From positions 124,001-188,000 of the forward strand of contig NZ_FPAU01000005.1 in the NCBI RefSeq assembly GCF_900116535.1: 64,000 bases of DNA, in the 5' to 3' direction. Within the stretch, counting starts at the first letter, position 1. Each line of letters opens with the position of its first letter. Positions 49,974 to 55,996 of this stretch are shown piece after piece. This DNA is from Kosakonia arachidis (GTDB lineage Bacteria; Pseudomonadota; Gammaproteobacteria; Enterobacterales; Enterobacteriaceae). The position numbers and the translations under genes were made by a program. The notes under the pieces are model-generated. The model saw only the letters and a list, made by a program, of their open reading frames with translations, made no database searches and was not told where the DNA came from.

Positions 49974-52043
49974 ATGTCTGAGAAAACATTCCTGGTGGAA
50001 ATCGGCACCGAAGAGCTGCCACCAAAAGCACTGCGCAGCCTGGCCGAGTCCTTCGCTGCCAACTTTACTGCTGAACTGGATGCTGCGGGCCTGGCCCATG
50101 GCGACGTGCAGTGGTTTGCCGCGCCGCGCCGTCTGGCGCTGAAAGTGGCAAAACTTGCCGCATCGCAAGCGGATCGCGAAGTTGAGAAACGCGGCCCGGC
50201 AATTGCCCAGGTGTTTGATGCTGAAGGCAAACCAAGCAAAGCTGCTGAAGGATGGGCGCGTGGTTGCGGTATTACCGTCGATCAGGCCGAGCGTCTGACG
50301 ACCGACAAAGGCGAGTGGCTGCTCTATCGCGCCCATGTAAAAGGCGAAAGCGTTGAAACGCTGCTGCCGAATATGGTTGCCACTTCGCTTGCTAAGCTGC
50401 CGATCCCGAAACTGATGCGCTGGGGCGCATCGGAAGTGACGTTTGTGCGTCCGGTGCATACCGTTACGCTGCTGCTGGGCGACACCGTTGTTCCGGCGAC
50501 GATTCTGGGTATTAATTCCGATCGCGTGATCCGCGGCCATCGCTTTATGGGCGAGCCGGAATTCACCATCGATAATGCCGATCAGTATCCGCAAATTCTG
50601 CTCGAGCGCGGCAAAGTGATCGCCGATTACGATGCGCGTAAAGCCAAAATCAAAGCAGATGCCGAAGAAGCGGCGCGCAAAATCGGCGGAAATGCCGATC
50701 TGAGCGACAGCCTGCTGGAAGAAGTCACCTCACTGGTGGAATGGCCGGTGGTGCTGACGGCGAAATTCGAAGAGAAATTCCTCGCTGTCCCGGCGGAAGC
50801 GCTGGTCTACACCATGAAAGGCGACCAGAAGTACTTCCCGGTTTACGGTAACGACGGCAAATTGCTGCCGAATTTTATCTTCGTTGCCAACATCGAATCG
50901 AAAGATCCGCAGCAGATTATCTCCGGTAACGAGAAGGTGGTGCGCCCGCGTCTGGCGGATGCCGAGTTCTTCTTTAATACTGACCGTAAAAAACGTCTTG
51001 AGGATCATCTGCCGCGCCTGCAAACCGTGCTGTTCCAGCAGCAACTGGGCACGCTGCGCGACAAGACCGACCGCATCCAGGCGCTGGCGGGCTGGATCGC
51101 CGGGCAGATTGGTGCTGACGTCAATCATGCTACCCGCGCTGGCTTGCTCTCCAAGTGTGACTTAATGACCAACATGGTGTTTGAATTTACCGACACCCAG
51201 GGCGTGATGGGCATGCACTATGCGCGTCACGATGGCGAAGCAGAAGATGTTGCCGTTGCGCTGAACGAGCAGTATCAGCCGCGTTTCGCCGGTGATGAAC
51301 TGCCGTCGAACCCGATTGCCTGCGCGCTGGCGATTGCTGACAAGATGGACACGCTGGCGGGTATCTTTGGTATCGGCCAGCATCCAAAAGGCGATAAAGA
51401 CCCGTTCGCGCTGCGCCGCGCTGCGCTTGGCGTGCTGCGTATTATCGTTGAGAAGAGTCTGGCGCTGGATCTGCAAACGCTGACCGAAGAAGCGGTACGT
51501 TTGTACGGCGACAAGCTGACCAACGCGAATGTGGTGGATGATGTCATCGACTTTATGCTGGGGCGTTTCCGCGCCTGGTATCAGGACGAAGGTTTCAGTG
51601 TTGACACTATTCAGGCCGTACTGGCGCGCCGTCCGACCAAACCGGCGGACTTCGATGCGCGTATGAAGGCGGTTTCACACTTCCGTACGCTGGATGAGGC
51701 AGCAGCACTGGCGGCAGCCAACAAGCGTGTTTCCAACATCCTGGCGAAGTCTGATGAAACACTAAACGATATCGTTCACGCCTCGGTGTTGAAAGAAGCG
51801 GCCGAAATCAAGCTGGCGGGTAATCTGGTGGTGCTGCGCGATAAACTGGAGCCGTTCTTTGCTGAAGGTCGCTATCAGGAAGCGCTCATTGAACTGGCGC
51901 AATTGCGTGAGTCGGTCGATGAGTTTTTCGAGACAGTAATGGTAAACGCCGACGATAAAAATGTGCGTATCAACCGACTGACACTGCTGGCGAAACTGCG
52001 TGAATTGTTCCTGCAGGTGGCGGATATCTCCCTGCTGCAATAA
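49974..52043 (+). CDS. glyS: Glycyl-tRNA synthetase beta subunit
   Basis: A 689-residue beta subunit that binds tRNA-Gly. [19 protein letters not shown] is the N-terminal B3/B4-like start. [12 protein letters not shown] and the HD-like [11 protein letters not shown] stretch lie in the middle, and the C-terminal anticodon-binding domain ends [18 protein letters not shown]-like. Length matches E. coli GlyS. A strong terminator follows. Confidence 0.98.
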
Positions 52044-52059
52044 AAGTCAGCTGCAATGA

Positions 52060-52112
52060 AAAAACCCGCTCAGGCGTTGGGGGGATCCCTCAGCACTTCG
52101 GCGGGTTTTTTT
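52060..52112 (+). terminator. Terminator of glyQS
   Basis: AAACCCGC and GCGGGTTT enclose an imperfect arm, followed by a T7 tract. It ends glyQS 17 bp after the stop and also separates it from the convergent diguanylate cyclase gene. Confidence 0.85.
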
Positions 52113-52123
52113 ATGGTCTCACA

Positions 52124-53071
52124 CTATAAGCTTTTAACCAGTTGCGGCTGTCTGGTAGCAACCTTATTGCGGCCAGCGCGTTTGGCTACGTATAGCATGT
52201 CATCAGCGCTCTGAATAAGCTGACCGTATTCTGTGTGCTGTTGCTGGTTATGGCTGGCGACACCAATGCTCACGCTGACGATGCGGTTGGGTGAGTTGAT
52301 ATGGGGTAAATCCAGCCGTTGAACGCTGGTACGCAACCGTTCGGCGATTTCCACCGCATCGGCGGAGTGCGTTTCCGGCAGCAGGGCGCAGAACTCTTCG
52401 CCGCCATAGCGAAACAGCATGTCGGTTGGGCGATCCAGTGCATTACGCATAGCGGTCGCGATCTGTTGCAGACATTCATCTCCGCGCTGGTGGCCATAGC
52501 AATCGTTATAGCGTTTGAAGTGATCGACATCGATAAGCAGCAGCGACAGCGATTTGTTGTTGCGCTTGCTGGCGCGCCATTCGCGATCAATGCAGAGATC
52601 GAAGTAACGCCGGTTGCCTACGCCGGTAAGACCATCAGACAGTGATTGTGATAATAATTCATGCGCCTGATCGCGCAGCAGGGATTCGCGGCGGACCGTG
52701 GTTGTAACGTCTACAATCTGGATCAGGCAAAACCGTTCAGCTGTACCTAGCGGAACAATCGTCACGGCCTGGCTCAGCCGGGCTGCAGGTCGTGCCGGTT
52801 CGGCATAAAGCGGAAATGGAGAACGGTGCAGCGACTGCGACAGCAGAGCAGATAAATTGTTGCCAATCGCCTGACGAATAGCATCGCCCACGCGGTGACA
52901 CTGCAAGTCAGGAAAGACAGTAAAAAAATCCTCCCCCAGCGTTTCGCTGGCGGCAAGACCGGTATGGGCTTCCAGCCAGTCGTTCCACAACGTAATGCGG
53001 TATTGCGCATCAACGATGATTACGCCGAGGCTGAGCGCCGAGAATGCATCCAGTAACAACTTATCTTTCAT
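52124..53071 (-). CDS. PAS-GGDEF diguanylate cyclase of the CheY-CheC module
   Basis: A 315-residue cytoplasmic protein. The N-terminal PAS-like domain (about 1-125; GVIIVDAQYRITLWNDWLEAHTG) is followed by a GGDEF domain (about 140-305). The active site GGEEF is at 223-227 and metal ligands in LLIDVDHFKRYNDCYGH near 180. An inhibitory RxxD site (RPTD, 214-217) lies exactly five residues before GGEEF, so product inhibition by c-di-GMP is expected. It starts 2 bp after the CheC-like gene and is the last gene of the operon. The combination is absent from E. coli K-12 at this place. Confidence 0.92.
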   Translation of the reverse strand: MKDKLLLDAFSALSLGVIIVDAQYRITLWNDWLEAHTGLAASETLGEDFFTVFPDLQCHRVGDAIRQAIGNNLSALLSQSLHRSPFPLYAEPARPAARLSQAVTIVPLGTAERFCLIQIVDVTTTVRRESLLRDQAHELLSQSLSDGLTGVGNRRYFDLCIDREWRASKRNNKSLSLLLIDVDHFKRYNDCYGHQRGDECLQQIATAMRNALDRPTDMLFRYGGEEFCALLPETHSADAVEIAERLRTSVQRLDLPHINSPNRIVSVSIGVASHNQQQHTEYGQLIQSADDMLYVAKRAGRNKVATRQPQLVKSL

Positions 53072-53073
53072 GA

Positions 53074-53712
53074 TTACATTCCGTCAGGAACACAACCGGA
53101 CTCAAGGCGGAGGATATAGAGCCGGATTTGCTCACGTAAGTCTTGCAGGGCGGACATATCCAGGATAAATGCGAGATATCCCTGAATTTGCTGGCGCTCC
53201 AGCGCAAAATCGATGCGCAACATCATCACCATCGGATCATTTTCATCCTGGTCCGGATTGAGGATCTGATTGCTGGTGCCGACGCGAACCTCGGGCAGAG
53301 AGCCCTGTAGCTCTTTCTGGAACATATTCGCCAGCGTACCAACACAGGCATTGAGCACGATATTACCGATTTCGCTCATCGCTTCGCGTTCCATCTCTCC
53401 CAGCTCATGGGCAGGGATCAGATCGCCAACCATCATGCGTACGATTTCAAAACTGGCAGCTTCCGGAAACATCAGAATCGCTTCTGTGGCATACGCGCCC
53501 TTATAATGCTGGCTGATACCAAACAGCGAAATGTCTGCGCCCAGTTCGTCCGCGGCTTCCGAGCGGGTGGTGAAGCGAAGGGTCGGTACCGACATGCGTA
53601 CTTCTTCATTAACGATATTACTCATTGCTGCGGCCGCATGGCCGACGCCAATGTTGAAGATCTCCATCAGGCTGTCGGCTTCGATATCGCTGATATCTGA
53701 CAGTGCGTTCAT
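53074..53712 (-). CDS. CheC/CheX-family CheY-P phosphatase
   Basis: A 212-residue CheC-type protein. The phosphatase consensus (D/S)-x3-E-x2-N-x22-P occurs twice. The first copy is D13, E17, N20 and P43 in DSLMEIFNIG. The second is in EAMSEIGNIVLN with a Pro 23 residues after the Asn. Both pseudo-symmetric sites are intact, so it should dephosphorylate a receiver domain, most simply the CheY-like product encoded just upstream. Genes overlap by 4 bp. CheC is typical of Bacillus, Thermotoga and some proteobacteria. Enteric chemotaxis uses CheZ instead. Confidence 0.88.
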   Translation of the reverse strand: MNALSDISDIEADSLMEIFNIGVGHAAAAMSNIVNEEVRMSVPTLRFTTRSEAADELGADISLFGISQHYKGAYATEAILMFPEAASFEIVRMMVGDLIPAHELGEMEREAMSEIGNIVLNACVGTLANMFQKELQGSLPEVRVGTSNQILNPDQDENDPMVMMLRIDFALERQQIQGYLAFILDMSALQDLREQIRLYILRLESGCVPDGM

Positions 53713-54080
53713 GGATTTTCCTCCAGACTATTCAGCAATGCATGGAGCTGCGGCTCTTTCAGCGGTTTCGGCAGGAAGCCAAGGCCAAGTTCTTCAGCGG
53801 CGGTTTGCACAGAATTCTGCACATTGGCAGTGAGCAGAACAATATGGGTTTGCGGGTGGCTTTTACGAATGCGCGAAGCCGTCTCCAGCCCGCCAATGCC
53901 CGGCATATTAACGTCCAGCAAGATCAGATACGGCGCCATTGTTTCAGCCAGAACGATCGCCTCCTCGCCCGTGCTGGCCTCGTCAATTTTCCAGTCTTTA
54001 TGCAGATTTGTGACAAACTGGCGTGAAATCATGCGCGACAGGCGGCTGTCGTCAACAATCAGAATATATCTGGACATCAT
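53709..54080 (-). CDS. Single-domain CheY-like response regulator
   Basis: A 123-residue stand-alone receiver. The acidic pair is D10-D11 (ILIVDDS), the phospho-acceptor D56 (ILLDVNMPG), T84 (VLLTAN) and K105 (LPKPL). All key residues are intact and no output domain is present, so it works through a partner. A second ATG at 54077 is equally usable. The gene overlaps the CheC-like gene by 4 bp. A sigma-28-type promoter is found about 190 bp upstream. Confidence 0.92.
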   Translation of the reverse strand: MMSRYILIVDDSRLSRMISRQFVTNLHKDWKIDEASTGEEAIVLAETMAPYLILLDVNMPGIGGLETASRIRKSHPQTHIVLLTANVQNSVQTAAEELGLGFLPKPLKEPQLHALLNSLEENP

Positions 54081-54269
54081 TCATTCTCTTTTAGTTGTTT
54101 GTTGCCGTAGCACCAGAACAAGGCTTTTCTATGGAACTGCGTTCCTGATTATTGCTTGCACCTGCCGCCGCGTTGCGTTTTGTGCTAACGCTTTGTGTAG
54201 TCGCTTTCTTTATGAAGTTGATATCGGGATTACACGTCCGGCCTACTGCTTTTAGTTAAGTCATCATAT

Positions 54270-54296
54270 TCATCGGCAATCGCGCACAAAAAATTA
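54270..54296 (-). promoter_or_regulatory. Sigma-28 (FliA) flagellar class 3-type promoter
   Basis: On the minus strand TAATTTTT-N11-GCCGATGA is present. The enteric FliA consensus is TAAAGTTT-N11-GCCGATAA, so the match is 6 of 8 and 7 of 8 with exactly the right spacer. It would drive the CheY-CheC-GGDEF operon with a leader of about 180 nt. Confidence 0.7.
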
Positions 54297-54560
54297 GTGC
54301 TGAATAACAGCCCCGCGTGAAATTTAATGCTGAAGCACAGAGGGTTAGGTCTACTGGTGTGGGGGACTCGTTAGCGGGTATGGAGTGTCAGCGGAGAGCA
54401 TTTTTCTCCAATGACCAGATCATAGGGATGTGCCAGAGCTATAAAATAAAAGCGTTAAATTTTGTAACGCGTTTATTTAAGGGTGATGGCAGTGAAAGTG
54501 AATGATTTTTCGCCATGGTCCTGCGCGCTTTGGGAACATTCGGCTAAAACAGAAATAACA

Positions 54561-54582
54561 AACCCCCGGCTCAGCGGGGGTT
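54561..54582 (-). terminator. Terminator of yiaG
   Basis: AACCCCCG and CGGGGGTT form an 8-bp stem with a 6-nt loop, and the minus strand continues T-rich. It lies 16 bp after the yiaG stop. The rest of the 517-bp gap to the CheY-like gene holds the sigma-28 promoter and no gene that I can support. Confidence 0.75.
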
Positions 54583-54597
54583 CTGGTGGAAAAACGT

Positions 54598-54891
54598 TCA
54601 ATCTATAAGCTGTTTGCTGAGCGTCGGGTTGGCATGAATCAGACGCATCAGTTTCATTTCGGTAGCGGTGGGGGTTATTCGTTGTGATTCCCACTCATGT
54701 ACCATTGATACTGAGACTCCCATTACACGAGCGAAGTCATCAATCTTAAGCCCGGTTCCGCGTCGCAATTGTTCAAAGTCACTAAAGGAATTCGGCTTTT
54801 TGCTCAGAGTTACCGGCTGCGTTACTTCATTTTTCAAAACAATTTGTTCCAGACTGCTCAGCAGTTCAAACATAGGATCTTTATATTCCAT
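54598..54891 (-). CDS. yiaG: HTH-type regulator YiaG
   Basis: A 97-residue protein with a C-terminal XRE-type helix-turn-helix (FEQLRRGTGLKIDDFARVMGVSVSMVHEWESQR, about 41-73). The N-terminus MEYKDPMFELLSSLEQIVLKNE matches E. coli YiaG. Proteins of this HigA/NadS-like group are often antitoxins, but no toxin gene is adjacent, so it is probably a stand-alone regulator. In E. coli cspA lies next to it, but no cspA is found in this window. Confidence 0.9.
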   Translation of the reverse strand: MEYKDPMFELLSSLEQIVLKNEVTQPVTLSKKPNSFSDFEQLRRGTGLKIDDFARVMGVSVSMVHEWESQRITPTATEMKLMRLIHANPTLSKQLID

Positions 54892-55282
54892 TGAGAACTC
54901 CTCGTAAAAATCACACAGCGGGATCGTGATACAGCTTATTAAGAATAGTCGTGAAAAGTCCTGGTGTGTGGTTTTGGCTGTAATTAATTGTAGGGTAAAT
55001 GGCTTTTCATGCGCTTCAGATGCATCTTAAGTGAAGCTTCTGCCGCTTAATTCTTTGATTTATCTATCTCTCCCGGCGCTCAGTATTTTTATGTAAAACC
55101 TTTTGTTTAATCTGGATTAAGAGTTATCTGCACACCTTGCGGGAAATTTTCATGCCAGGTCGAATTAATAGTCTTAAGAATGCAAGGAAAGGGTATCTTG
55201 CGAGGCGGACCTGGACTATCCTTGTAAGCCGTCAGGCACGTGTGTGCCGGTGTGCGCTTTTATGGGTGAAAGGAGTAAGAAA
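54892..55282. other. Intergenic region yiaG-yiaF
   Basis: About 390 bp of fairly AT-rich sequence carry the divergent promoters of yiaG and yiaF. I found no cspA and no convincing small gene. A 66-codon frame at 55137 overlaps yiaF out of frame and lacks a ribosome site. Confidence 0.5.
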
Positions 55283-55996
55283 ATGGCGACAGGAAAGTCC
55301 TGCTCTCGCTGGTTTGCGCCTCTTGCGGCGTTATTAATGGTAGTTAGCCTGAGTGGGTGTTTCGATAAAGAAGGCGATCAGCGCAAGGCGTTTATCGACT
55401 TCCTGCAAAATACGGCAATGCGTAGCAGCGAACGTCTGCCCGCTCTGACGGCAGATCAGAAAAAACAGTTCGGCCCGTTTGTCTCTGATTATGCTGTAAT
55501 TTATGGCTATTCCCAACAGGTTAATCAGGCTATGGACTCCGGTCTGCGTCCGGTAGTGGACAGCGTTAACGCCATCCGCGTACCGCAGGACTATATGACT
55601 CAGCGTGAACCGCTTCGTCAGGCCAATGGCTCGCTCGGCGTACTCAGTCAGCAGTTGCAGAATGCGAAAATACAGGCGGATGCTTCTCATGCGGCGTTAA
55701 AGCAGGCGGACGATCTCAAGCCGGTGTTTGACCAGGTGTATACCAAAGTGGTCACCAATCCGGCCAACGCGCTGCAACCGCTGATCCCGGCGGCGCAGGT
55801 CTTTACTCAGCAACTGGTACAGGTTGGCGACTTTATTGCCCAGCAGGACACGCAGGTGAGCTTTGTTGCCAACGGTATCCAGTTCCCGACGTCTCAGCAG
55901 GCCAGCCAGTATAACGCGCTGATTGCTCCGCTGGCGGCGCAGCATCAAGCGTTCAATCAGGCCTGGACCGCGACCATTAGCGCCACGCAGCAGTAA
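55283..55996 (+). CDS. yiaF: DUF3053 lipoprotein YiaF
   Basis: A 237-residue lipoprotein with signal sequence and lipobox in FAPLAALLMVVSLSGC. The mature domain is helical (DFLQNTAMRSSERLPALTADQKKQFGPF ... VSFVANGIQFPTSQQASQYN), as in E. coli YiaF (DUF3053). AAGGAG precedes the ATG at 55283. The longer frame from 55244 lacks this. Function unknown. It lies at the left edge of the AT-rich insertion. Confidence 0.92.
   Translation: MATGKSCSRWFAPLAALLMVVSLSGCFDKEGDQRKAFIDFLQNTAMRSSERLPALTADQKKQFGPFVSDYAVIYGYSQQVNQAMDSGLRPVVDSVNAIRVPQDYMTQREPLRQANGSLGVLSQQLQNAKIQADASHAALKQADDLKPVFDQVYTKVVTNPANALQPLIPAAQVFTQQLVQVGDFIAQQDTQVSFVANGIQFPTSQQASQYNALIAPLAAQHQAFNQAWTATISATQQ

Follow-up and report, generated by a model that had tools for sequence, protein, structure and literature searches.

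CheC has so far been known mainly as a chemotaxis phosphatase, and chemosensory systems of the Wsp type couple a CheA-type input to a c-di-GMP output. We take the PDB entries 1xkr and 2f9z to be structures of Thermotoga maritima CheC. The same assignment is made in passages of PMC3513319. Psyr_0886 of Pseudomonas syringae, a REC-CheC protein, is listed among predicted BphP1 interactors in an excerpt of PMC5654926. In E. coli, PdeH, YcgR and Nfr are controlled by FliA according to passages of PMC8669469, and FliA control of PdeH is also given in parts of PMC6119863 and PMC5635695. The oxygen-sensing Kosakonia enzymes KoBdcA, KoBdcB and KoBpdA, which adjoin the bcsIII operon (PMC13141831, in part), were set apart from the locus described here, and the main text of that paper held no occurrence of CheC, CheY or response regulator. 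Passages of a V. cholerae HubP paper (PMC8789113) contained nothing on a cassette of receiver (RR), CheC and PAS-protein genes, and the archaeal CheC interactions presented in part of PMC3579733 had no bearing on the operon. No description of the operon or of the cassette was found in the titles and abstract openings of the open-licence literature, a scope outside which most subscription papers fall; the cassette family is apparently unstudied. The locus analysed here lies in a 64,000-nucleotide stretch of the Kosakonia arachidis genome (contig NZ_FPAU01000005.1), referred to below as the window.

Results

The window carried an intact minus-strand operon encoding a receiver, a CheC protein and a PAS-GGDEF cyclase, in that order, flanked by a convergent gene and a further neighbour which we take, after the E. 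coli gene names, to be glyS and yiaG, respectively. The first gene (53709..54080, minus strand, 123 aa) encodes a stand-alone, CheY-like response regulator (Pfam Response_reg, 1.5e-23) with the acidic pair D10 and D11, the phospho-acceptor D56, T84 at the T/S position and the lysine K105 all in place. The second (53074..53712, minus strand, 212 aa) overlaps the receiver gene by 4 bp (ATGA). Its product matched the Pfam profiles CheX and CheC (5.2e-10 and 2.1e-7; PF13690 at 39.7 bits with a cut-off of 27, PF04509 at 31.2 bits with a cut-off of 22) and carries the ExxN pairs E17/N20 and E114/N117, which characterises it as a CheC-family protein and putative CheY-P phosphatase. The receiver residues and both ExxN pairs were kept in 20/20 enteric sequences compared, and CheC was 94% identical in the nearest named records (K. 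sacchari and K. oryziphila). After a 2-bp gap follows the third gene (52124..53071, minus strand, 315 aa), a predicted PAS-GGDEF diguanylate cyclase with the signature GGEEF (Pfam GGDEF, 1.8e-51; PAS_4, 1.3e-5). The coordinates, strand and spacing given in the original prediction were confirmed, and its description of a lone receiver with an intact phosphorylation site, a CheC-type phosphatase with both sites intact and a PAS-GGDEF cyclase agreed with the profiles and residues found. The I-site that it also reported, an optional cyclase feature of the form RxxD, was present in the window as RPTD, but it was not a conserved trait, being kept in only 9/20 enteric sequences, the window's included. 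The convergent ends of glyS and the operon are separated by an inverted repeat containing A/T runs (52058..52112), which was recognised by eye and was absent from the pattern-scan list; it is a probable terminator shared by both. No Rfam match was obtained in the window at the gathering threshold. At the sequence level, the operon was under purifying selection, with dN/dS of 0.04-0.27 in 29/30 gene comparisons between the window and 10 loci; dS was saturated in the 30th.

Upstream of the receiver gene, a predicted sigma-28 (FliA)-type promoter, TAATTTTT-N11-GCCGATGA, was located at 54270..54296 on the minus strand. The box matched 13/16 positions of what we take to be the FliA consensus, a TAAAGTTT-N11-GCCGATAA-like box, with a spacer of 11 and three mismatches. 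A genome-wide scan allowing up to three mismatches returned 153 FliA-like sites versus 86 for the reversed pattern, so a three-mismatch box by itself proves little and is not clearly beyond chance. What made the box credible as a FliA promoter was its conservation across loci. It was kept as TAAT..TT-N11-GCCGATGA in 21/21 Kosakonia-type loci (15 distinct), where it stood at positions -213 to -227 relative to the receiver start. Of its 27 columns, 17 were invariant, compared with an average of 6.1 for 27-nt windows of an intergenic region that was otherwise diverged. The frameshifted record of Enterobacter sp. EA-1 (L010/L049), excluded from the 21-locus count, retained GCCGATGA with a spacer one base shorter. 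The -10 element GCCGATGA was also kept, at -114 to -130 and with a weaker -35, in 7/7 Phytobacter-type loci (4 distinct, including one record labelled Kosakonia sp. S29). A Phytobacter plasmid copy kept the -10 too. The FliA-type promoter of the original prediction was therefore upheld as a box conserved in the genus, and FliA would recognise it in the cell.

The box might still be fortuitous, with another promoter running the operon, a role unrelated to flagella and a cyclase that senses a PAS ligand of its own. The frequency of sites with up to three mismatches would be compatible with this explanation, as would the Enterobacter kpr-6 copy, in which the operon is present without a FliA box; in addition, according to part of PMC13141831, hemin is bound by PAS domains in other c-di-GMP enzymes of Kosakonia. 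We consider such an arrangement improbable, however, because the box persisted amid diverged sequence in every Kosakonia-type locus and its -10 in every Phytobacter-type locus, and because sigma-70-like matches in 51900-55300 amounted to a single one, inside the receiver gene, versus 3.8 expected.

In the genome of K. arachidis, 31 FliA sites with up to two mismatches were detected, and the downstream frames of 30 were inspected. Many preceded pdeH-, flgK-, fliD-, motA-, flgM-, ycgR- and MCP-like genes (names assigned by eye), and several preceded only short or unrecognised frames. One MCP gene of this genome had a -35 identical to that of the operon box (TAATTTTT). Shortly after the -10 and near the expected transcription start, the stretch TGACTTAAC (54255..54263, minus strand) was at least as conserved as the box; it fell within the 27-nt windows that scored highest for conservation between the genes in Kosakonia loci, and Phytobacter-type loci carried TGACCTAA or a near version of it. 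With the start placed according to the box, the predicted 5' leader would span 54081..54263 (minus strand, roughly 180-190 nt), and folding indicated no stable structure in it beyond that of shuffled sequences (z about 0). Among distant loci carrying CheC, a FliA-like match of at least 12/16 was present in 6/55, three of them scoring 13, which is suggestive only, given 55 tests; the two distant loci closest to the window, L110 and L112, were not among them.

A search beyond the enteric bacteria showed that the three-gene order is not an enteric novelty. We examined 58 distant gammaproteobacterial CheC loci, namely the best-scoring 29 of 172 matching genomes in the order search and the best-scoring 29 of 70 in the class search (the K. 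arachidis genome is counted within the 172 and the 70), which makes the sample a biased subset. A receiver lay just upstream of CheC in 55/58 of these best-scoring loci, and two of the three exceptions (L122 and L127) had a second CheC close by in the same genome. A homologous PAS protein followed within 1.5 kb downstream in 53/58, in 51 cases within about 200 bp and in two more than 1.1 kb away. GGDEF similarity was seen within the stretch in 40/58 and histidine kinase similarity in 7/58 of the best-scoring loci; each stretch extends 1.5 kb beyond CheC and so truncates long third genes, several of which, at 690-842 aa, were GGDEF-EAL-like by eye. In three loci of one family (L030, L042 and L126; f7), a PAS histidine kinase replaced the cyclase within the cassette. 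L110 and L112, the closest among the loci examined, had the same layout as the window and CheC proteins 46 and 48% identical to that of the window, which itself carries the adjacent RR, CheC and PAS-protein genes that define the cassette. Three genomes (G809 C206, G810 C241 and G862) harboured more than one CheC of the cassette family, and in G809 and G810 two CheC genes lay on one strand, approximately 0.5-0.6 kb apart. CheC matches occurred in 31 plasmid records, of which seven were inspected, one from Phytobacter and six alphaproteobacterial. The order was RR-CheC-PAS kinase on the Rhizobium and Agrobacterium plasmids and CheC-PAS-RR on the four Azospirillum plasmids, and cheA was present in 3/6 of the alphaproteobacterial stretches inspected. 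On this evidence, the cassette is an old and widespread proteobacterial family with an output part that has been exchanged between species.

Two features of the distant loci bear on how the parts may work together. The swapping of the output while PAS stays suggests that PAS is the receiving domain, and the single open frame shared by receiver and CheC in 14/58 best-scoring loci argues for joint action of the two. The fused frames would also suit a scheme in which the receiver regulates CheC rather than being its substrate: phosphorylation would switch CheC as a partner of the PAS domain, and another CheY, or none, would be dephosphorylated. A precedent is B. subtilis CheC, for which CheD binding outweighs phosphatase activity according to passages of PMC3513319. 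Pure binding would not need the residues of the first catalytic site, and yet these were invariant in 58/58 best-scoring distant CheC sequences and in 20/20 enteric ones. The second site was less constant (both ExxN pairs in 38/58). On balance, we regard regulation of CheC by the receiver as doubtful.

CheZ was found in 15/15 genomes of the genus, and CheD was lacking from the K. arachidis genome (no match of PF03975; a control query matched in 5/14 genomes). A replacement of CheZ by CheC was thereby ruled out, as was a CheC/CheD adaptation system, and CheC appears as an addition rather than a substitute. Two CheA, two FliM, two CheZ and two FliA proteins exceeded the cut-off in the same genome, which seems to carry two flagellar/chemosensory sets. 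These copies were noted on C12 and C14 of this genome. Neither a cheA gene next to the operon nor a dedicated array was apparent in the window. The association with flagella, a check that accompanied the original prediction, was evaluated in 369 genomes of the class, 70 with the cassette CheC family and 190 with FliM. FliM was present in 60/70 carriers versus 130/299 non-carriers (odds ratio 7.8, Fisher p 5e-11, a comparison that ignores relatedness and genome size). The remaining 10/70 carriers were without a FliM match and included all three f59 carriers, so flagella seem not to be a requirement for the cassette. Within the enteric family, FliA exceeded the cut-off in 153/246 genomes, including 6/6 intact carriers; the best match of a further genome, G365, was weaker (3.7e-47). 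The operon was accordingly not confined mainly to non-flagellated relatives.

The receiver and CheC could also serve flagellar chemotaxis itself, as an extra phosphate sink or phosphatase that draws on CheA phosphate or CheY-P and tunes the motor, the cyclase being merely co-expressed. CheC belongs to a CheY-P phosphatase family (Pfam, and parts of PMC3510030 and PMC3513319), the promoter is of the FliA type and the lone receiver has every acceptor residue, all of which would fit. We nevertheless judge this unlikely, if slightly less so than the two alternatives above, since the genus already has CheZ throughout, a PAS gene is linked in the great majority of the best-scoring distant loci (53/58) and FliM was not seen in ten of the class genomes with the cassette CheC family.

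Among the enteric genomes examined, the operon was almost restricted to Kosakonia and Phytobacter. In the GTDB family, 8/246 genomes matched, including one weak partial match (G500) and one fragmented copy in a low-quality genome (G365); these two were left out of the count of six intact carriers. Within the genus, 14/15 genomes carried the operon. In the single non-carrier, glyS and yiaG were approximately 290 bases apart, and the stretch examined had no match to the three genes. For E. coli, 5,426 genomes (20,395 records) gave no DNA-level match. In 8/8 Kosakonia-type loci compared for their neighbours, glyS and/or yiaG lay within the stretch examined. At the Phytobacter loci L007 and L009, an aldehyde dehydrogenase gene preceded the operon; downstream lay a tyrosine phenol-lyase/transporter pair in L007 and different genes in L009. 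The kpr-6 copy (L013) was followed by a formate dehydrogenase-like gene (all by eye). P. diazotrophicus TA9730 carried the operon on a 99-kb plasmid, pTMTA97303 (L144, 7627-9580), beside the same aldehyde dehydrogenase gene and tyrosine phenol-lyase/transporter pair as in L007. Behind glyS, gene content differed between genera in L138-L143, with an MCP-like gene in L141, and this place may therefore be insertion-prone. In the CheC tree, which had a midpoint root only, the 20 enteric rows formed one group (100/100), and the rows nearest to it were L110 and L112, which belong to a family (f143) outside the order of Kosakonia (support 97/91); rows from other families of that order were not nearest in this midpoint-rooted tree. 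This placement favours acquisition from outside. Together, one enteric clade, several gene neighbourhoods and one plasmid copy indicate that the enteric operon was probably acquired.

Discussion

Starting from the operon, its catalytic residues, the conserved promoter and the constant RR-CheC-PAS order with exchanged outputs, all of which are read from DNA, the best reading is that of a FliA-timed phospho-switch of receiver and CheC gating a PAS-coupled cyclase, to which we assign a probability of roughly 0.5. The cassette would belong to the flagellar class 3 regulon, with FliA transcribing the operon while flagella near completion. A co-made kinase, most likely CheA from either chemosensory set, would phosphorylate D56 of the receiver. 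We infer CheA as the likeliest donor in Kosakonia from its gene neighbourhood in some alphaproteobacteria and from co-expression under FliA; in cassettes with a histidine kinase as third gene, this kinase may be the donor instead of CheA. The ExxN sites of CheC would remove the phosphate from the receiver of its own operon, so that the receiver state would decay with a fixed lifetime. Either the receiver alone or its pair with CheC would then act on the cyclase at its N-terminal PAS domain, the presumed receiving end, and set c-di-GMP synthesis; both the identity of the kinase and this direction of signalling are our proposal. The cyclase output would oppose the FliA-dependent phosphodiesterase PdeH and feed the FliA-dependent receptor YcgR. 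The role of a timer that acts as cells leave motility, put forward originally, would be one conceivable use of such a switch.

A broader statement, which we put forward tentatively and at somewhat less than even odds, is that RR-CheC-PAS-X forms a distinct portable cassette of Proteobacteria, in which a dedicated PAS domain is the docking site for a self-resetting switch, made up of a receiver and its own phosphatase, and X (cyclase, cyclase-phosphodiesterase or histidine kinase) is swapped behind an unchanged input. The acquired Kosakonia/Phytobacter copy would have joined the sigma-28 regulon, so that flagellating cells make a cyclase reporting chemosensory phosphorylation. If true, the conserved linkage of RR, CheC and PAS with an exchangeable output would make the resetting of a phospho-switch a general role of CheC, and plant-associated enteric bacteria would have a direct wire from a chemosensory kinase to c-di-GMP. 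It would also reveal an oddity, with the flagellar sigma factor driving not just PdeH, a phosphodiesterase, and YcgR, a receptor, but a cyclase too.

By sequence, the window CheC is of the same family as the CheC of T. maritima and B. subtilis (1xkr, E 4e-8), with the two ExxN sites aligned. It differs in that the Kosakonia genome is without CheD and the partner genes encode a lone receiver and a PAS-GGDEF cyclase, and it lies far under the NCBIfam CheC equivalog cut-off (68 vs 250 bits). Psyr_0886, likened here by its partial description, shares the combination of receiver and CheC but holds both in one protein. The plasmid operons of Rhizobium and Agrobacterium have the same order of RR, CheC (or CheX) and PAS genes, whereas their output is annotated as a histidine kinase and showed no tblastn similarity to the PAS queries used; the Rhizobium operon sits behind cheW-cheB-cheR-cheA. 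Wsp-type systems resemble the proposed switch in their working, but in Kosakonia the receiver and the cyclase are separate proteins, CheC is inserted and no dedicated array was seen in the window. Finally, PdeH, YcgR and Nfr of E. coli are likewise c-di-GMP elements under FliA, as given in passages of PMC8669469, but they represent a phosphodiesterase, a receptor and an exopolysaccharide system, whereas the Kosakonia operon would place a cyclase behind a phospho-switch.
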